The notes under the pieces are model-generated. The model was not told the DNA's origin. It searched no databases and was given only the letters and a program-made list of their open reading frames with translations. 49,221 nucleotides of DNA from Acidobacteriota bacterium (GTDB lineage Bacteria > Acidobacteriota > Vicinamibacteria > Vicinamibacterales > 2-12-FULL-66-21). This document shows positions 16,128 to 46,262 of the stretch, in pieces. Made by a program: the position numbers and the translations under genes. Location of the stretch: contig JACPDI010000046.1 in NCBI GenBank assembly GCA_016184105.1, forward strand, positions 1 to 49,221. The letters run 5' to 3'. Each line of letters begins with the position of its first letter. Position 1 is the first letter of the stretch.

Positions 16128-17855
16128 CTACTCCGGCGCGCCCGCGCCGCCCGCCGGCGTCGCGCCCGCGTCGTAGACGATGCGGCCGCCGATGATCGTC
16201 TTGAGCACCGTGGTGGTCAGGATCTCGCGTTCGGGCACGGCCATCACATCGCGCGACAGCACGACGAGATCCGCGATCTTGCCGGCCTCGAGCGATCCCA
16301 GGTCCTTCTCCATGTGCGCCGCGTAGGCGGCATCGATCGTGAACGACTTGAGCGCTTCTTCACGCGACAGGCGCTGCCCGGGCATCCAGCCGCCGGCCGG
16401 GTGTCCCCGGGGATCCTGCCGCGTGATGGCGGCATACAGGCCGAGCATGGGATTGGGTTCTTCGACGGGAAAGTCCGAGCCGTTGGCCAGGACGGCGCCA
16501 GACCTCATCAGCTTCCGCCACACGTACGCCCCTTCCGCGGTGCGCTCGGGCCCGATGCGTGTCGGCACCCAGGGCATGTCGGACGTGGCGTGCGTGGACT
16601 GCATCGAGGCGATCACGTTCAGCTTCGCGAATCGTGGAATGTCCTGGGCGTCGAGGATTTGCGCGTGCTCGTCGCGCATCCGCAGCGCGCGCGCGCCCGG
16701 GACCTCCGACTGCACGCGCTCGAAGACGTCGAGCACCTCGCGGTTCGCGCGGTCGCCGATCGCATGGATGCACGTCTGGAAGCCGGCCTTCGAGGCTTCC
16801 AGCGTCTGCTGGTAGACCTCTTCGGGCGGCGTGGTCAGCAGGCCGCGCGTCTCGGGGCGATCGCTGTACGGCTCGAGCAGCGCCGCCCCGTACGATCCCA
16901 GCGCGCCATCAGCCGAAATCTTGATGGCGCGTACCGTGAGGTGGCCCTTTCCATAGTTGACGATCGGGCCGCGGTTGAAATACGGGCGCAGCCGCTCGAG
17001 CCGATCGCGGAGCATCACGTACAGCCGCGTCTGAAGGCGGCCGTCATCGACGAGCTGTTCATACGCCTCGACCAGGTCGCCGGAGACCCCCGCGTCGTGC
17101 ACCATCGTGAGGCCGAGGCGCCGGCACTCCCTGTCGGCGCGGAGGATCGCATCGATCGTCTGCTCGCGCGACGGGGCGGGGATCTTCTGCGCGACCAGCC
17201 GCTGCGCCGTGTCGATGAGGACGCCGGTCGGATTGCCCTCCTTGTCGCGGATGATCTCGCCGCCTGGCGGGTCGGGGGTGCCCCGTGTCACGCCGCCGAG
17301 GGCCAGCGCGCGGCGGTTCGCGAGCCCCGCGTGCCCATCCACCCGCGTCAGGTACACGGGGTTGGCGGGCGCCGCGGCGTCGAGCTTGCCGGCGGTCGGG
17401 AACGCCTTGTCCGTCCAGTCGTTCTGGTCCCAGGCGCGGCCGAGAATCCACTCGCCCGGCCGTGACTGCGCGGCGGCCTCGCGCACCATTTCCACGATCT
17501 GGTCGTAGCTGGTCGTGCCGCGAAAGTCGAGACGCTGCAGGCTTTGCCCGAGCCCCGTGAAATGGCCGTGCGCGTCCTGCAGGCCCGGCACGATGGTGGC
17601 GCCCCGCAGGTCGAAGATGCGGGTGGCGGGCCCGCGCAGCGCAAGCGCGTCGGCGCTGCTGCCGACGCGCAGGATCCGGTCACCGCGAATCGCGATGCCC
17701 TCGGCGCGGGGCCGGGCCGCATCGACGGTGTAGATGCGCGCATTGTGGAGGATGAGATCCGCGGGCGCCTGCGGCGCCGCCGGGGAAGAGGGCTGCGCGC
17801 CGGCAGAAGCCCCGGCCAGCGCGAGAACGAGGAGCGCCGCGACGTGTGTGCGCAT
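16128..17855 (-). CDS. Exported amidohydrolase (YtcJ/amidohydrolase-3 family)
   Basis: 575 aa with a signal peptide (cleavage near 20, SAGAQP). The metal-dependent amidohydrolase fold is shown by DAHGHFTGLG (first HxH), VDGHAGLANRRALAL, the later HAIGDRANREVL, and GSDFPVEEPNPM with the catalytic Asp. The N-terminal beta-sandwich segment (LILHNARIYTVDAARPRAEG) and the C-terminal AGKIADLVVLSRD are typical. The substrate of YtcJ-like proteins is generally not known. It starts 3 nt after the M14 peptidase stop. Confidence 0.9.
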   Translation of the reverse strand: MRTHVAALLVLALAGASAGAQPSSPAAPQAPADLILHNARIYTVDAARPRAEGIAIRGDRILRVGSSADALALRGPATRIFDLRGATIVPGLQDAHGHFTGLGQSLQRLDFRGTTSYDQIVEMVREAAAQSRPGEWILGRAWDQNDWTDKAFPTAGKLDAAAPANPVYLTRVDGHAGLANRRALALGGVTRGTPDPPGGEIIRDKEGNPTGVLIDTAQRLVAQKIPAPSREQTIDAILRADRECRRLGLTMVHDAGVSGDLVEAYEQLVDDGRLQTRLYVMLRDRLERLRPYFNRGPIVNYGKGHLTVRAIKISADGALGSYGAALLEPYSDRPETRGLLTTPPEEVYQQTLEASKAGFQTCIHAIGDRANREVLDVFERVQSEVPGARALRMRDEHAQILDAQDIPRFAKLNVIASMQSTHATSDMPWVPTRIGPERTAEGAYVWRKLMRSGAVLANGSDFPVEEPNPMLGLYAAITRQDPRGHPAGGWMPGQRLSREEALKSFTIDAAYAAHMEKDLGSLEAGKIADLVVLSRDVMAVPEREILTTTVLKTIIGGRIVYDAGATPAGGAGAPE

Positions 17856-17858
17856 GGA

Positions 17859-20543
17859 CTAATTAGGCGAAGGGGTCGTGCGGGCCGCGGGTTGGGCCGT
17901 GCTCGTCGCGAGGTACAGCGAGTTGAAGAACAGCTTGAACGTGCCCCAGGTCTGCGCGCGGTTCTGCACCCGGAAGGTGTGCATGATGATGCGGCCGCGC
18001 CCGGTCGTGAAGTCAATCGACGCGGCGCTGCCTCGCAGCTTCTCGTCGCCGATGATCCATCCGCTGCGCAGCAGCGGCTCCTGCGGGTACCGCGCCACGA
18101 CCGACGCCTGGGTCGCGGTAAAGGCCGGCAGCACGCGATAGCCGCCGTTGCTGATGAACATCGCATCGGCCGACTCCGGCATGCCGAAGCCGAGCGGGTG
18201 CCGGTTGTCCACCGCGATCTTCAGGATCGATCCCGGGCAGAAAAACGTGTCCTGGTCGAGCCCGCGCAGCACGTTTTCCGCGGGCACGCCGAGGTGCTCG
18301 ATGGCGAACTGCGCCGAGTTGCCGAGCGTCACGATCGTGCCGCCGGCGTTGACGAACTCGCGCAGGTTGCGGACGCCGTCCTCGCCGAGCCCCCCCTTGT
18401 GCTCCGGGTAGGCGCTGCGCGCGGTGATGCCGCGCATGATCTGCGCGACGCTCATCTCGGGAAACACGACGACGTCAAAGCGCGAGTGCAGGTTCGGCCG
18501 CCGCAGGTCGGCGGCGCGCGCCTGCGTGTAGGAGAAGTCGTGCTGCTCGAGCAGCCAGCGCGTCCACCCCGCGTCCATGTTGCCTCCCCAGGGCTCGAAC
18601 AGCGCGATGCGCGGCGCACGCACCGGCAGGGTGCGCGCGGAGACGGAGGCGGTGGCCTCGACGGCCAGCCCAAGCTCGCTGGACACCCTGGCGACCTGCT
18701 CGCGCGACGCGCCGCGGACGATGATTGCGCCGGGGCCGAAGCTCCGGCCATTCACCACGATGGGCTCGTGCGCCCACGCGACGTCCGCTCCGGCCTTCAG
18801 CAGCCGGTTGCTCGCGGTGACCGCGGCATCAGCCGCATGGTCCAGCACGAACGTTCCGCCGTTCCCGCTCACGCGCCCCAGCCTGGCGTCGAAGCCATCG
18901 GGAAGCAACGCGAGCCTGGCGTCGAACGGCGCGTCCACCTTGATCGTGTCCACCCCCATGAGCATCCCGAGCGACCAGGCGCTCACGTCATACGGGCGGT
19001 CGATGGGCGCGCTCGCGAAAGGCCAGCGGATGTCGGGATACTTCTGCGGTTCGAGCAGGTCCTTGATCCAGCGGCCGAACGGCTGCGAGAGCAGCGCGAC
19101 GTACGTGCCCGCGGGATACGTGCGCCCGTCGGCGGTGAACGGCGCCTCCGCACGCCGGACCTCCCCGGCTTCCGCCTGGATCAGCTGCACCAGCTTGACG
19201 ACGGCGCCGGGGTCGCGCTGGTCAGCGGGGATCACGTACGCGTACGGCGAGCCCTTGGCGTAGAGATCGATGGCGCGCCGGTTCATCAGGTAGAAGTTGC
19301 GCTTCAGGGTTTCTCTGTTGTTCGCGACTCCTTCGAGCAGTCCGAGCGCCGACGTGAACTGGTAGTCCACGACATCGGCCAGGCTCCACGAACCGCCCAG
19401 CCAAGGCTGGGTGTAGTTCATCCGGTACTGGACATCGGTTGGAGCGGGCACCGGCGCGCTCGGATCCCGGTCCGCGAATCCGCCTTCGCGGCCGGGGGCT
19501 TCGGCCGGCCGGGGCGGGCGGCTCGGGTCCGCCTTCTCCTGCACGAGCGTCGTGCCGAGGCGCGAGCTTGCCACCTCGGTGAGCAGCGCAATCATGTTGT
19601 GCCACCACGGGTTCGTGCTGTTCGCGCCCTGCCAGAACCCCGTGTACTGCTCGCCCCAGACGACGCCGGTCTTTCCCGCCTCCGCCAGCTTGGTCGCCAT
19701 CGACTGCCCGAGCAGGTTGGTCTCCGCCCACACGAGCGGATCGATGTTCGGATTGGGCGGGTTCTTGAAGGGCGGCACGAAGATCCGCGCGCGGTTCGAG
19801 CCCATCTGGTGCTTGTCGAGATACACCTCGGGCAGCCAGTCCTTGTACGTCACGCGCGTCAGGTGCTGCGTCTCGACCTGCGTGAGCATGTAGTTGTCGC
19901 GGTTGTTATCGTGGCCGATGTACTTGTGGTACAGCTCCGGCAGCGGCGCGTCCTCGTGCGGCGTGCCGACGTTCTTCATGTACCAGTCCGCCACCATCTG
20001 CTGCCCGTCCGGGTTCTGCGAGGGGATGAGCAGCAGGATGACGTTCTTCAGCACGTGGTCCACCCAAGGCGACTGCTCGGTGGCGAGTTTGTACAAAAGA
20101 TCGTTGACCATCTGGCTGTTGCCGATCTCGGTCGCGTGCACGTTGGTGCCGATGAGCAGCACCGCCTTGCCCTCGCGGGCGATGCGCGCGGCGTCCGCCT
20201 CGCTCGTCTTTCGCGGATCGGCGAGCTTCTTCTGCGCCTCCTGGTAGGCCCCCAGGCTCGCGATGGCATCGGGCGACGACACGATCGCCATGATGTAGGG
20301 CTTGCCCATCGTCGTCTTGCCGAGTTCCTGCACGACGACGCGGTCCGACGCCCGGTCGACGATCTGGAAGTACTCGACGATGCGGTTCCACGGCGCGAGC
20401 TTCTTTTCCGCGCCCATCTTGAAGCCGAAGAACTGTTCCGGCGTCGGCGCCTTCGCCGGTTGCGCCGGGGCGGCGGAGGACGCGAGCACGAGCAGGCAGC
20501 CGGCGACAACGGCGTGACGGAGCAGGCGGGAGTGCGTGTGCAT
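17859..20543 (-). CDS. M14-family zinc carboxypeptidase-like protein with GATase-like tail
   Basis: 894 aa counted from the ATG complementary to 20541-20543, which opens a good signal peptide (MHTHSRLLRHAVVAGCLLVL, cleavage near 28). The frame extends upstream into the previous gene, but that part is a shadow. The M14 catalytic domain (about 40-340) has the zinc ligands H136 and E139 (NVHATE), a later DKHQMGSNRAR histidine, an NNRDN substrate-arginine segment, and ALLTEVASSR holding a possible general base. A C-terminal segment (about 660-780) resembles a class I glutamine-amidotransferase-like or ThuA-like fold (FDVVVFPEM, FVNAGGTIVTLGNSAQ). Peptidase activity is likely; the substrate is unknown. 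It starts 11 nt after the HD-GYP stop. Confidence 0.85.
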   Translation of the reverse strand: MHTHSRLLRHAVVAGCLLVLASSAAPAQPAKAPTPEQFFGFKMGAEKKLAPWNRIVEYFQIVDRASDRVVVQELGKTTMGKPYIMAIVSSPDAIASLGAYQEAQKKLADPRKTSEADAARIAREGKAVLLIGTNVHATEIGNSQMVNDLLYKLATEQSPWVDHVLKNVILLLIPSQNPDGQQMVADWYMKNVGTPHEDAPLPELYHKYIGHDNNRDNYMLTQVETQHLTRVTYKDWLPEVYLDKHQMGSNRARIFVPPFKNPPNPNIDPLVWAETNLLGQSMATKLAEAGKTGVVWGEQYTGFWQGANSTNPWWHNMIALLTEVASSRLGTTLVQEKADPSRPPRPAEAPGREGGFADRDPSAPVPAPTDVQYRMNYTQPWLGGSWSLADVVDYQFTSALGLLEGVANNRETLKRNFYLMNRRAIDLYAKGSPYAYVIPADQRDPGAVVKLVQLIQAEAGEVRRAEAPFTADGRTYPAGTYVALLSQPFGRWIKDLLEPQKYPDIRWPFASAPIDRPYDVSAWSLGMLMGVDTIKVDAPFDARLALLPDGFDARLGRVSGNGGTFVLDHAADAAVTASNRLLKAGADVAWAHEPIVVNGRSFGPGAIIVRGASREQVARVSSELGLAVEATASVSARTLPVRAPRIALFEPWGGNMDAGWTRWLLEQHDFSYTQARAADLRRPNLHSRFDVVVFPEMSVAQIMRGITARSAYPEHKGGLGEDGVRNLREFVNAGGTIVTLGNSAQFAIEHLGVPAENVLRGLDQDTFFCPGSILKIAVDNRHPLGFGMPESADAMFISNGGYRVLPAFTATQASVVARYPQEPLLRSGWIIGDEKLRGSAASIDFTTGRGRIIMHTFRVQNRAQTWGTFKLFFNSLYLATSTAQPAARTTPSPN

Positions 20544-20554
20544 GGTGACCAATC

Positions 20555-21910
20555 CTACATGAACGTCAGGGGATCGATGCCGAAGTGCGCCGGGTCGAGC
20601 GGCGCGCTGACTGTCATAGGCTGACCGTGAGCGTCGACCGCGTCCCACAGGTTGCGGTCGAGCGGGACGTCGAGCCGCTCGCCGCCGGCATCCGCGATGA
20701 CGCGCACCCGCGGGCGGTACGGATCGGGTGCGTGGATCTTGACGACGACCGCCAGCTCCCCCGTGCTCAGGCGGACCAGGTTGCCGGGCGGGAAGATGCC
20801 CATCAGCTGCGCGAAGCGGCGCACGAGGTGCTGGTCGAAATGCGCGCCATCATCCTTCTTCAGGACGGCCAGGATGCGGTCCGAGGGAAACGCCTCCTGG
20901 TACGCGCGCTGCGATCGCATGGCGTCGTAGACGTCCGCGATGCTGCACAGCTGCGTGCCGACGTTGAGCGCGCTCCGCCGCACGCCGCCCGGATACCCCG
21001 TGCCGTCCACGCGAAGATGGTGCTCGAAGGCGACGATCGGCGCCAGGATCGGCATCTCCGGCGTGCGCCGCAGGATTTCCGCGCCCTCCACCGGGTGCCG
21101 CTTCATGATCTCGAACTCGCCGTCGGTGAGCTTCTCGGGCTTGTTGAGCACCTCTTTCGGCGTCCGCACCTTGCCGATGTCGTGCATCAGCGCCGAGAGG
21201 CCGAATTCCCGCAGCAGCCGGCCCTCGATCCCGAGGGCGCGCGCCTGACCCATCGTGAGGATCGACACGTTCACCATGTGCGTGAACGTGTAGTTGTCGT
21301 ACGTCTTCATCGCCGTCAGCGCGATCAGGGCGGTCCGGTTCTGCGTCACCGCCTCCGAAAGCCCTTCGACGGTCTGGAGCGCCAGCGCCACGTCCGGCTT
21401 GCCCTCGCTCTGCGCGCTGTCCCACACCGACTGCGCGCTGGTGACCGCGTTGGCATACAGCCGCCGGATCGCGGCCATGTCGCTCTGGATGCCCTCGGTC
21501 GATTCCTCCTGGCTCGTGATGCGCCCCACGCGGATGTGCGGCAACGACGCGAACTGATCGGCGTTTGCCGAGGTCGCGACCAGGCGCATGAACGCCTCCA
21601 GCTCCTCGCCGCCGATGCCGCGCTCGAACGACACGCGCTCGATCCCCTGTGACTGCAGCTTCTTGATCAGGTCGCCCATTTGCGCGCTGGCTTTCGCCAT
21701 CGGCGTGTCGGCGACGACGAGCTGCCCGCCGACGATGCCGGCCGTGAGCGACGGGTGAAGCCCGTGGAGCTGCCGGATGAGCGCGAGCAGCGCTTCGAGG
21801 TTGCGCGCGGTGAGCGGGTGGCCGGGCGCGTACAGCTGCGAGCCGCGAATGCCGGACGCGAGCTTGCGAAGCACGTCGTCGTAGAGCGCGACGCGGTCGA
21901 TGTCTGCCAC
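20555..21910 (-). CDS. HD-GYP domain protein (second copy), putative c-di-GMP phosphodiesterase
   Basis: 451 aa. The N-terminal module (about 8-135) contains SQLYAPGHPLTARNLEALLA and later IERVSFERGIGGEELEAFMR. A helical linker leads to the HD-GYP domain (about 215-400): H243-D244 in MHDIGK, KRHPVEGAEIL, the H297-H298 pair and the full signature DGTGYP (GYP at 305-307), then ADVYDAM. A roughly 70-residue beta tail follows (GNLVRLSTGELAVVV). All metal-site residues of the family are present, so hydrolysis of c-di-GMP is expected. It starts with GTG immediately after the TAG of the HEAT-repeat gene (TAGGTG). It is homologous along its length to the HD-GYP gene at 24118-25503. Confidence 0.9.
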   Translation of the reverse strand: MADIDRVALYDDVLRKLASGIRGSQLYAPGHPLTARNLEALLALIRQLHGLHPSLTAGIVGGQLVVADTPMAKASAQMGDLIKKLQSQGIERVSFERGIGGEELEAFMRLVATSANADQFASLPHIRVGRITSQEESTEGIQSDMAAIRRLYANAVTSAQSVWDSAQSEGKPDVALALQTVEGLSEAVTQNRTALIALTAMKTYDNYTFTHMVNVSILTMGQARALGIEGRLLREFGLSALMHDIGKVRTPKEVLNKPEKLTDGEFEIMKRHPVEGAEILRRTPEMPILAPIVAFEHHLRVDGTGYPGGVRRSALNVGTQLCSIADVYDAMRSQRAYQEAFPSDRILAVLKKDDGAHFDQHLVRRFAQLMGIFPPGNLVRLSTGELAVVVKIHAPDPYRPRVRVIADAGGERLDVPLDRNLWDAVDAHGQPMTVSAPLDPAHFGIDPLTFM

Positions 21911-24121
21911 CTACTTGCCCTGCCTTCCCAGTTCCATTCGTGCCGCGCGCCGCGCGCCGCGCGGGCCGGATGCCGCCGCCTCGCGCAGCGCCTGCAGCGC
22001 CGTTTCGCCGCCGATGCGCCCCAACGCTTCAACAGCCGCCCGACGGTGTTCCCGGGTCTGCCACGGCGACCAGAGATCGCCCTGGTAGAGCGCGTACTTG
22101 AGCGCCTCGACCGCCTCGGTGCCGCCGAAGCTGCCCAGGGCCTCGATGGCCGCGAGGAACAGGGGCCGCAACGCATGCCGATCGATCTTCGGCAGCAGGT
22201 ACGTGAGCAACGGCGCCGCGCGCTCGTCGTTCAGCGTCGTGAGTTCCCCGGCCAGGCTGGCGCGCGCGGGGCCGTCGGCGGAGAGCGCCTTGAGCACGGC
22301 CGCGTAGGCCAGCTCGTTTCCGCCAAGCAGCACCGTCCGGAGCGCCTCGCGCTGCACCCGCGGCTCGCGATCGGTGAGCAACGGCTCGAGCGTGTTGAGG
22401 TTCTCGCTGCCGCCGAACTCGCTCAGGAGGTACGCCGCCGTGCGCCGCACTTCCCAGTTCGAGGCGTTCAACAGCTGCTGGACCGCCTCGCGCCCGCGCT
22501 TTCCGAACATCACGAGCACTTCGCGCACCCGGCGGCGCGCCTTCGGGTCCGCCTCGCCCGCCAGCGCTTCGGCCAGCGGCGGGATGACGGCGGGCCCGAC
22601 CATGCCGGACAGCCGCTTGAAATACTCGAACTCGTCGTCGGTGGCGGTCCGGAGCATCTTGACCGCGTGCCGGAGCAGCGCGCCTCTCGCGAGCCGGTCG
22701 AGCGTGGGGCCGGCCTGTGCCGCGCGCGGCGACCCCTCCCGGCTTCCCTCAACGGCCACCAGTTCGGCCAGGCGGCGAGCCACCTCCAGCTGGCCGAGGC
22801 GCGCCAGGTCGTCGATGTGGCTCACAACCGTGTCCGCCAGGTCGCGCCAGCGCGCGGGGTCCTGCTCGACCGCCAGCAGGTCCTCCAGCAGCTGCAGGTC
22901 GAGATCGCGCATCGCCGCATCGCTGACGCTGCCCATCCACGCGGCGATGCGCTCCGGCGGGTCGTCGCTCGCCTTCTCGACGTCCACGGCACGCGACCGC
23001 GACCCGGACAGCTCGCGCCCGTAATCTTCGGACACGAACGACTCGTCGCTGTAGGTCGTCAGCATCTTCTCGACGCGATCCCACAGCTCCTCGAAGGTTT
23101 CCTCCCGGCCGATGGGAGACTGCGCGACTTGCTCCTCGGCCAGGGCGAGCAGCTGACGCTTGCGGTCCACGTCCGGGACGAGCGTCTCGAACGCCTGCGC
23201 GAGGCGCTCGCTCGCGCCGTGCTCCTCGATGACCGAGCCGGCGACGAATCCCGCGATTGCCGGATCGCTCATCCGGTCGACGACCGCCCCGACCACGTCG
23301 AGCGGGCCCGCCTGCGCCTCCTGCGTCATGCGCTGCGCGAGCAGGCTCACCATGGCGTCCGCGCTGAGCCGCCCGGCCGCGTCGGCCATCGTCTTCAGGA
23401 CGCCCTCGAGCTGGTCGGGCTGGTGTTTCGCGACGTACTCGGCGAGCCCTTTCAGCAGCTTCAGGAACGCCGTCGCGTGCGCCCCGTGCCCCTCGCTCTC
23501 GGCTGCCTCCTCCAGCTTTGCGACAAGCTCGCGGAGCCTGGCCGGATCGCCGACGACGCCGAGGAGCGCGCGCAGGGCTTCGTCGGTGACCTCGAGGCGA
23601 GGGGACCCTTTCAGGCACGCCGCCACGACGTCGTCGATGAGCGCCGCGGTCCCGGAGCGCTCGCGCAGGACCTCGGCGTAATCGACCTCGTGGATCTCGA
23701 TGCTCGATCCGCCGCTGCGGCTCCAGAGGTGCGCGATCCCTCCATCGGCCCGGTTTTCCTCGGGCGTGCGCGCGAGCAGCAGCAGGAAGGATCGCCACGT
23801 CTGCTCGTCGGCGCCGCCGTGCAGCACGATGCTGGCGATCGTCTGCTGGTGGAGGAGCTGCGCGAGCTCCGCGATCGCCGCGTCCGGCCTCGCCGCGGGT
23901 GCGCCGCCGACGAGGATGCTGTCCGGCCTGAGCTGCATCGCAAACGGCCCGGCCGCGGTGGCGCGCGAGGTGGCCTCCACCAGCTTCCCGAGGGTCGCGC
24001 CGATTGCGGGATGCGCCGCGGGGTACAGCGACACCGCGCGCGCCGCCGCCTTGCAGGCGCGCGCGAACTCCGTGAGCGCCTGCGTCATTTCCGGCGACAG
24101 CGGCTCGCGCGCGTCCGTCAA
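21911..24121 (-). CDS. HEAT-repeat protein (second copy) with LYPxxHP N-terminal module
   Basis: 736 aa. The N-terminal module (about 15-150) contains AVSLYPAAHPAIGATLGKLV and ends with IEIHEVDYAEVLRERSG. A long helical middle follows, and from about residue 480 come HEAT-type repeats (EALAGEADPKARRRVREVLV, NASNWEVRRTAAYLLSEFGG, TDREPRVQREALRTVLLGGN). There is no signal peptide and no enzyme motif. It starts with TTG in a 4-nt TTGA overlap with the upstream HD-GYP stop; an ATG 11 codons later is an alternative. A scaffold or partner role for the coupled HD-GYP protein is an inference. Confidence 0.85.
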   Translation of the reverse strand: MTDAREPLSPEMTQALTEFARACKAAARAVSLYPAAHPAIGATLGKLVEATSRATAAGPFAMQLRPDSILVGGAPAARPDAAIAELAQLLHQQTIASIVLHGGADEQTWRSFLLLLARTPEENRADGGIAHLWSRSGGSSIEIHEVDYAEVLRERSGTAALIDDVVAACLKGSPRLEVTDEALRALLGVVGDPARLRELVAKLEEAAESEGHGAHATAFLKLLKGLAEYVAKHQPDQLEGVLKTMADAAGRLSADAMVSLLAQRMTQEAQAGPLDVVGAVVDRMSDPAIAGFVAGSVIEEHGASERLAQAFETLVPDVDRKRQLLALAEEQVAQSPIGREETFEELWDRVEKMLTTYSDESFVSEDYGRELSGSRSRAVDVEKASDDPPERIAAWMGSVSDAAMRDLDLQLLEDLLAVEQDPARWRDLADTVVSHIDDLARLGQLEVARRLAELVAVEGSREGSPRAAQAGPTLDRLARGALLRHAVKMLRTATDDEFEYFKRLSGMVGPAVIPPLAEALAGEADPKARRRVREVLVMFGKRGREAVQQLLNASNWEVRRTAAYLLSEFGGSENLNTLEPLLTDREPRVQREALRTVLLGGNELAYAAVLKALSADGPARASLAGELTTLNDERAAPLLTYLLPKIDRHALRPLFLAAIEALGSFGGTEAVEALKYALYQGDLWSPWQTREHRRAAVEALGRIGGETALQALREAAASGPRGARRAARMELGRQGK

Positions 24122-25503
24122 TTCGCACCCTCCGTGTTCAGGTGGGACAGCGGGTCGATGTTCGCGGTCTCCGGATCCACCGCTTCCACCACGCCGCGGG
24201 CGTAGTCACCCTGCAGGTCCCGTTCCCACGTGTTGACGAGGACGGGAGATTCGAGGGGTTCCCCCCGCGCATCGCGGATGATCTTCACCTGAGGCCGGAA
24301 GGGATCGTGCGGGTGCTCGTGCGTGACGACGCCGAGTTCCTCGGTGCCGAGGCGCACCAGCGTGCCGACCGGGTAGAGGCCCATCAGGTTGATGAACCGC
24401 CGCAGCAGCGCGCGGTTGAACGCGGTGCTGTCCTGTTGCGCCATGATGGCCTTGACGCGCGCGGTGGGGAGCCCCTGCCGGTAGATGCGGTTGCTGCGCA
24501 GCGCATCGTACACGTCCGCGATGCTGACCACCATCGTGCACAGGTTGAGCCGCCGCGACCCGATGTTCTCCGGGTAGCCGGAAAGGTCCTGCTTCAGGTG
24601 ATGCTCGAAGGCGACGATGGGCGCAAGTGCCGGCATTTCGGGCGTGCGCCGGAGTATATGCGCGCCGTCGATCACGTGCCGCTTCATCACCTCGAATTCG
24701 TCCCTGGACAGCTTGTCGGGCTTGTTGAGGACGTCAACCGGGGTGTTCACCTTGCCGATGTCGTGCATCAGCGCCGCGAACCCGAATTCGCGCAGCAGCG
24801 GCCCCTGCACGTTGAGCGATCGCGCCAGCGCCATCGCCAGCACGGCGACGTTCACCATGTGCGTAAACGTGTAGTTGTCGTACTTCTTGAGCGCGGTGAG
24901 CGCCATCAGCGACGTGCGGTCCTGCGAGACCAGGCGCGCCAGGCTGTCGATAATCGTGCGCGCGGCCGCGGGATCCGGCTGGTCCCCGGCCTTCGCGGCG
25001 TCCCAGAGGGACTCGGCCGTGTCGACCGCCGTGCCATAGAGCTTCTTCGCCGCGACGAGGCCGACCGAGCCGCCCTCGTCTTCCGACACCACGATCCGGC
25101 CGACGGTGATTCCGCGCAGGGCGCTCCGCTCGAGCCGGCTCGCGAGCGGCTCGCGCGAGGTGTGGTCGCCGAGCGCCGCGACGAACGCGCGCACCTCCTC
25201 GCGCGTGACGCCGCGCGAGAAGGTGATCTTCTCCACCTCGCGCGCGCGCAGGTCGCGCACGAAGCCGACAAGCCCGGCCGCGCTCCGCGTGAGGCGCTGG
25301 CCGTCGACGACGACTTCATCGCCGACAAATCCGACGACAAGCTGGTCGGACGACTGCAGCGCGCGGGCGCACAACGCCGCGAGCGCGTCGGTCCCGCGCT
25401 GCACGAGCGGGTGGCCCGGCGCGTACAACGAGGATGCGCGGACGGCCGCCGCCAGGCGCCGGACGAGCTCCTCGGCGTGCGCCGCCCCAGTCATCGCCGT
25501 CAT
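24118..25503 (-). CDS. HD-GYP domain protein (first copy), GYP signature altered
   Basis: 461 aa from the ATG complementary to 25501-25503, which overlaps the HEAT-gene stop by 4 nt (ATGA); the longer open frame upstream is a shadow. The N-terminal module has ASSLYAPGHPLVQRGTDALA and VEKITFSRGVTREEVRAFVA. The HD-GYP domain has H247-D248 (MHDIGK), KRHVIDGAHIL, H301-H302 and ADVYDAL, but the signature reads HHLKQDLSGYP (GYP 309-311) instead of the usual HHxxxDGTGYP. It therefore probably still binds metal, while activity may differ from the second copy. The tail (GTLVRLGTEELGVVTHEH) matches the second copy. Confidence 0.88.
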   Translation of the reverse strand: MTAMTGAAHAEELVRRLAAAVRASSLYAPGHPLVQRGTDALAALCARALQSSDQLVVGFVGDEVVVDGQRLTRSAAGLVGFVRDLRAREVEKITFSRGVTREEVRAFVAALGDHTSREPLASRLERSALRGITVGRIVVSEDEGGSVGLVAAKKLYGTAVDTAESLWDAAKAGDQPDPAAARTIIDSLARLVSQDRTSLMALTALKKYDNYTFTHMVNVAVLAMALARSLNVQGPLLREFGFAALMHDIGKVNTPVDVLNKPDKLSRDEFEVMKRHVIDGAHILRRTPEMPALAPIVAFEHHLKQDLSGYPENIGSRRLNLCTMVVSIADVYDALRSNRIYRQGLPTARVKAIMAQQDSTAFNRALLRRFINLMGLYPVGTLVRLGTEELGVVTHEHPHDPFRPQVKIIRDARGEPLESPVLVNTWERDLQGDYARGVVEAVDPETANIDPLSHLNTEGAN

Positions 25504-27761
25504 TCCCGGCTCTCGCGAGACGGCCCGGCCGCCGCGATCTTTCTCACCAGACGATCGCCGCGCGCCGCCGCATCGGCGATCGCCCGCTGCGCCGCGGGCG
25601 TCCCGACCCGGCGCAGCGCCGTCACGGCGGTCTCGGCGAGCGCCCGCCGCTTCCGGCGGGCGAACCACCTGCGCCGGTGCATCAGGCCGGCCACCGTGCC
25701 GACCGCCGGATCCCCGACCATCGCGCCGAGCGTCCCGAGCGCGTTCAGCGTGTCGAGCACGACCGCGTGGTCCGCGCCGAGCGCGTCGCTTTCCGCCAGG
25801 ATGCGAGACAGCACCGGCACCACGCGCGGGTCCCGCTCCGCGGCGAGGGCGCCGACCACCGCCTGGCGCGCCTCCCCCGTGGCGGCGCGCAGCACGGTGT
25901 GAACCGCCCGTGCCGCCGCGGGATCCTCGATGTTCGACAGCGCGCGGACGGTCTGCCGAAGCAGGCGGGAATCGTGGCTGCGGAGCAACGGCTGCAGGAA
26001 GGGCACCGCCTCCGGCGAGCCGATCGCCTGGAACAGTTCACAGGCGTTGCGCTGCACGTGCCACCTGGGGTCCGCAAGCAGCGGCGCGAGCCGCGGGATG
26101 GCGGCGGCGCCGCACGCCACGATCATCGCCGACGCACGCGCCCGCGCTCGCGGGAGATGGCCATCGTCGAGCGTCATCACCTCGCGCAGCGCGTCCACGA
26201 CGGCGGCGCCGATCGCGCCGGCGAATGTCTCCACCTGTGCGAGCTGCGCGTCGTCCATGTCGTCGAGCAGCATCACCGTGTCGCGCACGGCCGGCGTGCG
26301 GGCCAACTGGTCGAGCGCGACGCGGCACGCCTCGCGAGTGGGCGCCGCGCGGTCGGCCGCGCGGCCGGCCATCGCGGCGCCGATGGCGGCGGCCGCCTCG
26401 TAGTCGCCCGCCATCAGCATGTCTTCGGCGAGCGCCGCCAGGTCGGCCGCGAGGGCGGGCGCGCGACCGGCGTCGCTTTCCAGGTTCAGCAGATCGATCA
26501 GCAGGGAGACCGACAGCCGGCGCACGTGATCCTGATCGAGCGTCTGCATCCACTCGCCCAGCTCCGGCGGCAGGTCCGCGGCGGCCGCCATGCGCGCGGC
26601 CCGCTCGCCGGCCTGATCCAGCCCGGCGCGGTATTCGGCGGAGACGAAGGGGCGCTCGTTGTAGTTGAGGAGCAGCTCCTCCATCGACTGCCACATGGCC
26701 TCGAACTCGCTCCGCCGGCCGAACTCGGTTTCGGCCATCAGCGTCCGCGTGAGGCGCAGCACGCGACGGCGGCGGTCTTCGTCCGGCGCGATCGTTTCGA
26801 ACACCGAGGCGAGCCGCGCCGACGCCTGTCCTTCGAGCGCCAGCGTGGTCGCCAGCAGCTGCGCGACCTTCACGTCGTCGAACGCCGCCGCGACGCCCGC
26901 CATCACCACCACTGAGGCAGCGTGTCCGGTTCCGGGCCGGCCGGCCTGCTCGTCCTGCGCGCCGCGCATCATCTGGAGCGCGACCCGCGGATCGAGCTCG
27001 GCGGTGGCTGCCGCCAGGTTCCGGACGATCTCGTCACGGCGTTCCGGCGCCAGCACCGTGACAATGTTGTGGAGGTGGTCGTAGGCGGCGACGATCGCCG
27101 CCGCCTGGGTGGTCACGAGCGGCGATCCATCCGGCGTGCAGTTGGGCGCCATGACGTCCTGCGCCAGCGCGCCGATCGCGTCGGTGCTGCCGGCGATTTC
27201 GAGCAGGCGGCGCTGCACGGCGTCGTCCAGGATCTTCTTGCGATCGAGCACGGACCGCACGATCGCCTGCCAGAGATCGTCGCGGCGCGAGGGGGCGGCG
27301 GCGGCCTCGCGCTCCTCGAGGACCTTGCGGTAGTCCACCTGCACGATGGCGATGCCGTGCAGCCCGGTGGTGCGCCACGCTTCGGCCGGGCCCCCGCGCT
27401 CGCGCAGCTGCGCCGGGTCGGACGCGATCAGCTCGACGAAGGCCTGCACGGGCTCCGGCGCGAGTTGCGGCGCGAAGACGATTCGAAGGACATCGCGCGC
27501 GTGCAGGAGCGCGGCGGCCTCGGCGCCCGGCCCGTGGTCGATCGGCGCGCCCTCATCGATGATGAGCGCGTCAGGCGTGACGCCGACGGCGAGCGGCCGC
27601 TCGCGCGCCGCCTCGTCCAGCGCGGACCGGAGCCGGGAGAGCGACGAGGCGACCGCCGGGTGTTCGGCCGGGTACAGCGCGCGGCTTCGCGCCGCCGCGA
27701 CGATGGCTCGCGCAAGGCCTTGCACCAGCCGCGGAATCTCGGAGGTGGCGGCGTTTGCCAT
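25500..27761 (-). CDS. HEAT-repeat protein (first copy) with LYPxxHP N-terminal module
   Basis: 753 aa from the ATG complementary to 27759-27761; the frame is open further upstream but the sequence there overlaps the divergent promoter. The N-terminal module contains [20 protein letters not shown] and ends with [16 protein letters not shown], matching the second copy (EVDYAEVLRER). HEAT-like repeats fill the C-terminal third ([40 protein letters not shown]). It has no signal peptide or catalytic motif. It is the first gene of the long minus-strand run and has a consensus TATAAT 18 nt upstream. Confidence 0.85.
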
Positions 27762-27779
27762 GTGGATGGTGACGCATGG

Positions 27780-27787
27780 ATTATACT
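27780..27787. promoter_or_regulatory. Overlapping divergent -10 elements
   Basis: On the minus strand 27785-27780 reads TATAAT, a perfect -10 consensus, 18 nt before the ATG of the first HEAT gene. On the plus strand 27782-27787 reads TATACT, 14 nt before the deoA ATG. Neither has a good -35 at 16-18 nt. Both would give very short leaders. This could be the promoter of the whole minus-strand run. Confidence 0.5.
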
Positions 27788-27801
27788 CAGCAAATCCCCG
27801 C

Positions 27802-29066
27802 ATGACCGCCGTCGACATCATCCGCCTCAAACGTGACGGTCACTCCCTCACCGAAGAACACATCGGCTGGTTTATCGCCGGCGTGACCGCCGGTACCATC
27901 CCGGACTACCAGGCCTCCGCGTTCCTGATGGCGGTGTTGCTGCGCGGCATGACCGACCGGGAGACCGCGTGGCTGACCCAGGCGATGGTGCGTTCGGGCG
28001 ATCGGGCCGACCTCTCGGATCTTCCCGGCGTCAAGGTGGACAAGCACAGTACCGGAGGGGTCGGCGACAAGGCCTCGCTGGTGCTGGCGCCGCTGGCGGC
28101 GGCGTGCGGCGCGATCGTGCCGATGATGTCAGGCCGCGGTCTCGGGCACACGGGCGGCACGGTGGACAAGCTGGAATCCATCCCCGGGTTCCGCCTCGAT
28201 CTGTCGCTCGACGAGATGCGTGCGGCGCTTCGCGCGACCGGCCTGGCGATGATCCAGCAGACCGCCCGCATCGCGCCGGCCGACAAGATCCTGTACGCCC
28301 TGCGCGACGTGACGGCGACCGTCGAGAGCATCCCGCTGATCTGCGGGTCCATCATGAGCAAGAAGATCGCCGAGGGGATCGACGCGCTGGTGCTCGACGT
28401 GAAGGTGGGCCGCGGCGCGTTCATGAAGACCGAGGCCGACGCGCGCGCGCTTGCCAACTCGCTGGTGGCCATCGGCCAGGCGTCCGGCGTGCGCACCGAG
28501 GCGCTGCTGACCGCGAGTCGATCGAGACGCTCAAGGGACGGGGTCCGGACGACCTCGAGCGGCTGTCGGTGGCGCTGGCCGCGCGCATGCTCGTGCTCGC
28601 GCGCATCAGTCCCACGATGGCTGACGCCGGCGCGCGCGTGCGCGGCGCGCTCGCCTCCGGCGCGGGGGTCGAGAAGTTCCGCGAGATGGTCGCGCAGCAA
28701 GGCGGGGATCCGCGCATCGTGGAGGACTACAGCCTGCTGCCGGTCGCCCCGGACACCTACGTGGTCGGCGCGCCGGTCGAGGGATACCTCGCCTCGCTCG
28801 ACGGCTTTGTGGTCGGCACCGCGTCGATGCTCCTCGGGGCGGGGCGCGAAAAAGCCTCCGACCGGATCGATCCCGCCGTCGGCATCACGGTGCGCGCCAA
28901 ACCCGGCGACGAGCTGGAGGCCGGAGAACCGATCCTCGAGCTGCACTACAGGGATGAATCCCGTCTGCGCGCCGCGATTCCCGTGGCCGGGCAGGCCATC
29001 GTGATGAGCGATCGCGCGCCCGCCGTTGCGCCGCTCATCATCGACACTATCGGCGAGTCCCGCTGA
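27802..29066 (+). pseudogene. deoA: Pyrimidine-nucleoside phosphorylase, internal out-of-frame deletion
   Basis: The protein splits pyrimidine nucleosides with phosphate. The first frame (27802 to about 28520) gives [31 protein letters not shown], and the family signature [17 protein letters not shown] near residue 110, up to GVRTEALLT. From about 28521 homology continues in another frame ([20 protein letters not shown] to the TGA at 29064-29066), covering the C-terminal alpha/beta domain. Between the two, the conserved D-M-x-x-P-L-G-x-x-x-G-N-x-L-E-V segment (about 17 residues) is absent. The frame change fits loss of 3n+1 bases, about 52. It is either a genuine pseudogene or an assembly deletion. 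Neighbours are other salvage genes. Confidence 0.85.
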
Positions 29067-45908: not shown

Positions 45909-46262
45909 ATGGCCGTTGAAGACGACGACAAGCGGGAACGCGAGCGGGTTCCCATCCTCGGCGAGCTGCGGGGCGAGGTCATGGTGTTTCAACCCATGAA
46001 CATCCTCGACATCAGCGCCGGAGGGGCGCAGATCGAGACGGCCTTCCCGCTCCAGCTCGACTCGCTCCACGATTTCCGCCTGACCCTCGGCGACCGCTCG
46101 ATCGTGGTCAAAGGGCGGGTGGCGCACTGCCACATCGGGGACCTCGACGAGGAGCGCATCGGCTACCGGACCGGCGTCGAATTCATCGACCCCCCCGAGC
46201 ACGTCCGCAGCGCGATCAAGGACTTCGTCAGCACGCTCAAGGCGGCGAGGCGGGTGGACTGA
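45909..46262 (+). CDS. PilZ-domain protein, putative c-di-GMP receptor
   Basis: 117 aa single-domain PilZ. The RxxxR c-di-GMP-binding motif is R9-ERE-R13, followed by DISAGGAQIE (the DxSxxG motif) near residue 34. The beta-barrel continues through FRLTLGDRSIVVKGRVAHCH to YRTGVEFIDPPEHVRSAIKD. Both ligand-binding motifs are intact, so c-di-GMP binding is expected. What it regulates is unknown. It is the only visible c-di-GMP effector in the window; the HD-GYP proteins are 20 kb away. Confidence 0.88.
   Translation: MAVEDDDKRERERVPILGELRGEVMVFQPMNILDISAGGAQIETAFPLQLDSLHDFRLTLGDRSIVVKGRVAHCHIGDLDEERIGYRTGVEFIDPPEHVRSAIKDFVSTLKAARRVD

Follow-up and report, generated by a model that had tools for sequence, protein, structure and literature searches.

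HD-GYP enzymes are usually controlled through sensor or receiver domains fused to them. In the GAF-HD-GYP protein PmGH (PDB 4MCW) the roles of the metal ligands have been assigned, K317 contacts guanine, and K317A and GYP substitutions have little effect (PMC4159591). Dinuclear HD-GYP centres have been linked in a review to one-step hydrolysis (PMC8177086), and in DvhD the HD-GYP domain, part of a dedicated multi-gene cyclic-dinucleotide module much as in the locus considered here, acts as a pure receptor (PMC13090378). V-cGAP3 (PDB 5z7c) and PmxA are HD-GYP proteins active on 3',3'-cGAMP, and no HEAT partner is described for either in the literature found. On the HEAT side, the described proteins that come closest are HEAT_PBS or NblB-like proteins, which share HEAT repeats (Pfam HEAT_2) with the C-terminal part of the HEAT proteins of this locus. 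The latter differ in their length (about 740–750 aa), their LYxxxHP N-terminal domain and their coupled HD-GYP gene, and their NCBIfam NblB match is below the cut-off.

The window analysed here, a stretch of 49,221 nucleotides (contig C46), belongs to a 4.24 Mb genome of an Acidobacteriota bacterium from soil/groundwater. The named genomes closest to it are Acidobacteriota MAGs, several of them labelled Vicinamibacterales, and the top matches of a contig scan were all near kin. It carries two successive pairs of genes, each specifying a HEAT protein and an HD-GYP protein. Both kinds of protein are already known, but the coupled, duplicated pair is apparently not: no description of such a pair with an unnamed N-terminal domain, copied as a unit, was found in the literature covered, which consisted of titles and abstracts and few subscription papers. 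The module is real and ancient, a variant of HD-GYP signalling that is apparently undescribed.

Layout of the cassette and its surroundings

The earlier note read the locus as four minus-strand genes in the order HEAT1-HD1-HEAT2-HD2 (27761..20555), joined by an ATGA overlap, a TTGA overlap and a zero-gap TAG-GTG, and the ORF coordinates bear out the order as well as all three junctions at the places claimed (Table 1). The ATGA junction is by itself weak evidence, since in this GC-rich DNA an A precedes 26% of TGA words. Among relatives, a possible start lies at -4, -1 or 0 in 64 of 100 HEAT>HD junctions, and an ATG at -4 in 45/100. The note was also right to regard the two pairs as homologous. 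HD1 and HD2 share 46% identity over 447 aa (E 2e-139), and HEAT1 and HEAT2 30% over 751 columns (E 7e-59), so that, judged by E values and alignment spans, the similarity in each pair extends over the full length and is much too strong to be due to chance. The Pfam domains scoring over the cut-off are HEAT_2 in the HEAT proteins and HD/HD_5 in the HD proteins. The repeats of the HEAT proteins are all-helical in the AF2 model, which resembles designed alphaRep/HEAT solenoids.

Table 1. Features of the cassette in the window, and HEAT genes of related loci that carry the N-terminal domain (N-domain) and lack an HD-GYP gene.
Feature	Coordinates	Strand	Basis
HEAT1, type-1 N-domain + HEAT alpha-solenoid protein, 753 aa, ATG start	25500..27761	-	ORF; Pfam HEAT_2 7e-19; type-1 clade
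N-domain of HEAT1	27300..27731	-	A5 profile E 1.2e-28
HD1, type-1 N-domain + HD-GYP protein, 461 aa, ATGA overlap with HEAT1	24118..25503	-	ORF; Pfam; tree
N-domain of HD1	25066..25485	-	A5 profile E 5e-49
HD1 HD-GYP core, approximate residues 209-370, type-1 signature HHLKQDLSGYP ... RIYR	24394..24879	-	
HEAT2, type-2 N-domain + HEAT protein, 736 aa, TTG start, TTGA overlap with HD1	21911..24121	-	ORF; Pfam; tree
N-domain of HEAT2	23648..24085	-	A5 profile E 1.7e-38
HD2, type-2 N-domain + HD-GYP protein, 451 aa, GTG start, zero gap (TAG-GTG) after HEAT2, in frame	20555..21910	-	ORF; Pfam; tree
N-domain of HD2	21476..21895	-	A5 profile E 3.9e-43
HD2 HD-GYP core, residues ~205-366: D205, H211, H243/D244, K247, H272, H297/H298, D302-G-T-G-Y-P307, D326, R335, Q338	20813..21298	-	
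Divergent 40-bp spacer, HEAT1 to deoA-like gene	27762..27801	.	sequence
N-domain HEAT, PF01966 gene directly upstream, L141	3782-6825		
N-domain HEAT, PF01966 gene directly upstream, L142	6028-8981		
N-domain HEAT, PF01966 gene directly upstream, L146	5509-8552		
N-domain HEAT, PF01966 gene directly upstream, L191	2135-5133		

The cassette site is conserved, fixed beside a deoA-like (pyrimidine-nucleoside phosphorylase) gene that lies divergently next to it in most or nearly all loci with room for it. In the window this gene (27802..29066, plus strand) is broken over two reading frames near 28510, by either a frameshift or an assembly error. The spacer holds a perfect TATAAT (minus strand, 27785..27780) about 20 bp 5' of the HEAT1 start, and no good -35 was found with it there. 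At the other end, an M14 peptidase gene with its likely start at 20543, 11 bp past HD2, is followed by an amidohydrolase gene on the same strand (20543..16128, minus). The gene directly 3' of the cassette varies among relatives and is often subtilase-like or another predicted hydrolase.

Conservation and duplication of the pair

When profiles of the HEAT and HD families were run over 396 Acidobacteriota genomes, at least 92 genomes were found to have a HEAT/HD pair. A HEAT match lies directly 5' on the same strand at 123/150 HD places among those listed, and no HEAT-HD fusion protein was noticed among them. The 27 apparent exceptions are an upper bound, the HEAT search having scored two candidates per genome; in the seven that were read (G001, G050, G167, G175, G182, G091 and G134) a HEAT frame lies upstream in every case, and nine others begin less than 1.7 kb from a contig start. 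The pairing is therefore not confined to close relatives, which by the earlier note's own criterion would have refuted it, but is present in many families of the phylum. Obligate pairing, of which the same note spoke, applies in the cases checked to HD-GYP proteins that have the N-domain; it fails for the HEAT partner, which is also found alone or next to other signalling genes.

Among 74 loci of named genomes, the exact arrangement HEAT-HD-HEAT-HD occurs in 28 and a single pair in 27, while about a dozen more have the fourfold arrangement in part, cut by contig ends or split frames. Trees of the HD and of the HEAT proteins were built separately, by quick searches, and each contains two clades, type 1 (29 first copies, 5 singles) and type 2 (29 second copies, 23 singles), with SH-aLRT support of 98–100 for these branches and no mixed-type pairs. 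The concordance of the two trees indicates a single duplication of the whole pair that predates the divergence of these genomes, and the duplication of the pair as a unit, proposed from the window, is upheld. The copies arose in tandem long ago, and pairs were afterwards lost as units. Contig ends account for some of the single-pair loci. In most type-2 singles the deoA-like gene is found immediately upstream, so the type-1 pair is truly missing there.

Catalytic cores and a shared N-terminal domain

The catalytic cores resemble PmGH and HD-GYP domains generally (profile E 2.5e-44). The H..HD..H..HH..D metal ligands are invariant in 86 proteins of both types, apart from one gap at the last D (D326 of HD2), and the same pattern was read in an alignment (A1) of 17 diverse members. 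The GYP triad and K247 are present in 86/86; a few distant members elsewhere in the phylum, among them L018 and L032, have a changed GYP. Altogether, the seven dinuclear ligands, GYP and the equivalents of PmGH K225, D308 and R314 are kept in all 86, one gapped row aside, and D205, the equivalent of PmGH D183, in 85 of 89 rows. They differ from PmGH at the position of its eighth ligand, E185, which is Tyr in 86/86; this places them outside the trinuclear subgroup and predicts a dinuclear centre. Further differences from PmGH are HHL for HHE, Q or R at K317, an N-terminal domain that is not GAF and for which no Pfam family was found, and the HEAT partner gene. V-cGAP3, the second-best PDB match, also has Y at the E185 position, and its RPYR is as in type 1.

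The two types show fixed differences beside the nucleotide pocket, type 1 having D-L-S-GYP with RxYR and type 2 D-G-T/S-GYP with RxYQ. At the K317 position type 1 has R (33/33) and type 2 has Q (52/52), and the DGxGYP glycine is kept in 51/52 type-2 proteins and replaced by L or R in type 1. Because these changes lie near the nucleotide-binding site, the copies probably differ in substrate preference or regulation; since K317A is nearly without effect in PmGH, a change of specificity is no more than a hypothesis. The substrate of HD1 and HD2 would be c-di-GMP or, alternatively, 3',3'-cGAMP. A cyclic-dinucleotide network is present in this genome, as indicated by eight GGDEF matches (one weak) and four PilZ matches. 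On the contig of the cassette there is a PilZ domain match, a possible c-di-GMP receptor (45933..46229, plus strand).

All four proteins begin with a homologous domain of about 140 aa, which the earlier note did not mention. When the N-termini of HD and HEAT proteins are compared pairwise by BLASTP the match is suggestive (E 8e-5 to 0.055), and comparison of the HD-N profile with the HEAT-N profile by hhalign gives 98.9% (E 2.7e-17, 136 columns), the same HD profile scoring below 3% against each of four other HEAT segments used as controls. The Tyr, His and Pro of its LYxxxHP motif are invariant across 97 sequences of the HEAT and HD kinds. In an AF2 model of HD2 residues 1–150 (pLDDT 90, pTM 0.81) the topology is alpha-alpha-beta-beta-alpha-beta-alpha-beta. 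A Pfam search of the 97 domains found no family common to more than three members, Foldseek gave no match at E <0.1, and the best Z in a VIA structure comparison (7.4) is inside the range of unrelated rows, so that neither method provides a confident PDB relative for the fold. The proteins do not have the DUF3391-HD-GYP architecture: DUF3391 scores 13.7 bits on HD2 against a cut-off of 27.8 and is absent from the matches of the 97 domains at E 0.1. The domain merits a family entry of its own.

In the genome of the window (G000) the domain occurs exactly four times, every one in the cassette, and in a phylum sample of 149 genomes 66 of its 89 occurrences make up 33 adjacent same-strand pairs. 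The atypical carriers examined end in HEAT repeats or HD-GYP, with the exception of one 200-aa frame. A plasmid search with a related HD protein returned ordinary HD-GYPs, the N-terminal region being barely matched in the rows shown.

Partner specificity and competing explanations

Partial distance correlations were calculated over the 28 doubled genomes with the distances of the other two genes removed, using a simple Mantel-type permutation test on genomes that are related. Cognate partners correlate (HEAT1-HD1, r 0.71; HEAT2-HD2, r 0.43) and the cross-pairs do so negatively (HEAT1-HD2, -0.23; HEAT2-HD1, -0.29), despite the direct adjacency of HD1 and HEAT2. HEAT1-HEAT2 (r 0.73) and HD1-HD2 (r 0.43) also correlate, as rate effects common to a protein type would give. 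This partner-specific co-divergence would favour matched pairs, HEAT1 with HD1 and HEAT2 with HD2, and is supportive rather than proof; that both partners start with the same domain likewise suggests that they work as a matched pair. Each cassette may then specify a two-protein module that pairs a HEAT solenoid with an HD-GYP phosphodiesterase for cyclic dinucleotides, in which the N-domains of the HEAT protein and its own HD-GYP protein most likely associate as a hetero-oligomer and the solenoid would control or localise the hydrolase; what we infer here is the physical contact, which partner controls the other, and the substrate. Taken whole, a matched pair docked through its N-domains, with the solenoid controlling or placing the hydrolase, seems to us on balance probable, and the conserved HEAT/HD-GYP pairing by itself is far more certain.

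Alternatively, each protein could use its N-domain separately, for sensing or homodimerisation, the HEAT and HD-GYP proteins being co-expressed in one pathway (one signal, two outputs) and forming no complex. An N-terminal alpha/beta domain of an HD-GYP protein stands in the usual place of a sensor, and the phylum has HEAT homologues without HD-GYP, with the N-domain on HEAT proteins that have no HD-GYP neighbour, which counts against a complex. The in-frame TAG-GTG was exploited solely to build a HEAT2-HD2 chain read through the stop for AF2 modelling (six in-frame paired rows, no linker), and this model has good local and poor global confidence (pLDDT 84.6, pTM 0.42) and gives no confident interface. 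Direct contact, however, fits better with the co-divergence of cognate partners, the neighbouring but non-cognate HD1-HEAT2 being negative, and with the loss of cassettes as whole pairs, and separate use of the domain is considered rather unlikely. Less likely again is a main role for the HD-GYP proteins as receptors of cyclic dinucleotides or as trigger enzymes, or a reaction on some other nucleotide tied to the nucleoside-salvage neighbours, in place of control over bulk c-di-GMP levels. Such roles would suit the replacement of the guanine-contacting lysine by Q or R, the type-1 L/R for the DG glycine and the conserved deoA-like gene, and DvhD is a precedent for a pure receptor (PMC13090378), but DvhD has lost its metal ligands whereas the cassette proteins keep every dinuclear one, the PmGH substitutions at K317 and GYP matter little (PMC4159591), and the salvage genes are divergent and may be mere synteny. 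Chance adjacency of an ordinary HD-GYP gene and a HEAT gene, plus a recent duplication at the locus, would be compatible with the window taken alone. It is hardly credible beside a homologous N-domain on both proteins, and was rejected because the HEAT>HD order is kept over the phylum and the type-1/type-2 split is deep.

Control seems here to rest with a separate solenoid that has the enzyme's N-terminal domain in common with it, the whole unit having been copied and retained. It is conceivable, though we would not expect it, that this is an undescribed cyclic-dinucleotide system of one Acidobacteriota order, in which a pair-specific domain holds an HD-GYP enzyme and a HEAT scaffold together and two insulated paralogous copies have split substrate preference (e.g., c-di-GMP versus 3',3'-cGAMP). 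The four genes offer a ready test of insulation between paralogous signalling pairs, and of whether the fixed pocket-side changes alter messenger specificity.

HEAT genes with the N-domain also occur in other settings. In four genomes of one family (f30) a small HD-domain gene (PF01966, not HD-GYP) overlaps or abuts such a gene directly on its 5' side (Table 1), and one of these loci has two N-domain HEAT genes in tandem (L191, 2281-7543) with no HD-GYP found in the stretch. In G005 and G020 the HEAT gene adjoins a STAS or STAS-like gene, with parAB-like genes nearby. The loci with a STAS gene beside an N-domain HEAT gene are L144 (7991-8332, Pfam-tested) and L145 (4489-4830, a look-alike), and parAB-like and bactofilin-like genes are found near them.
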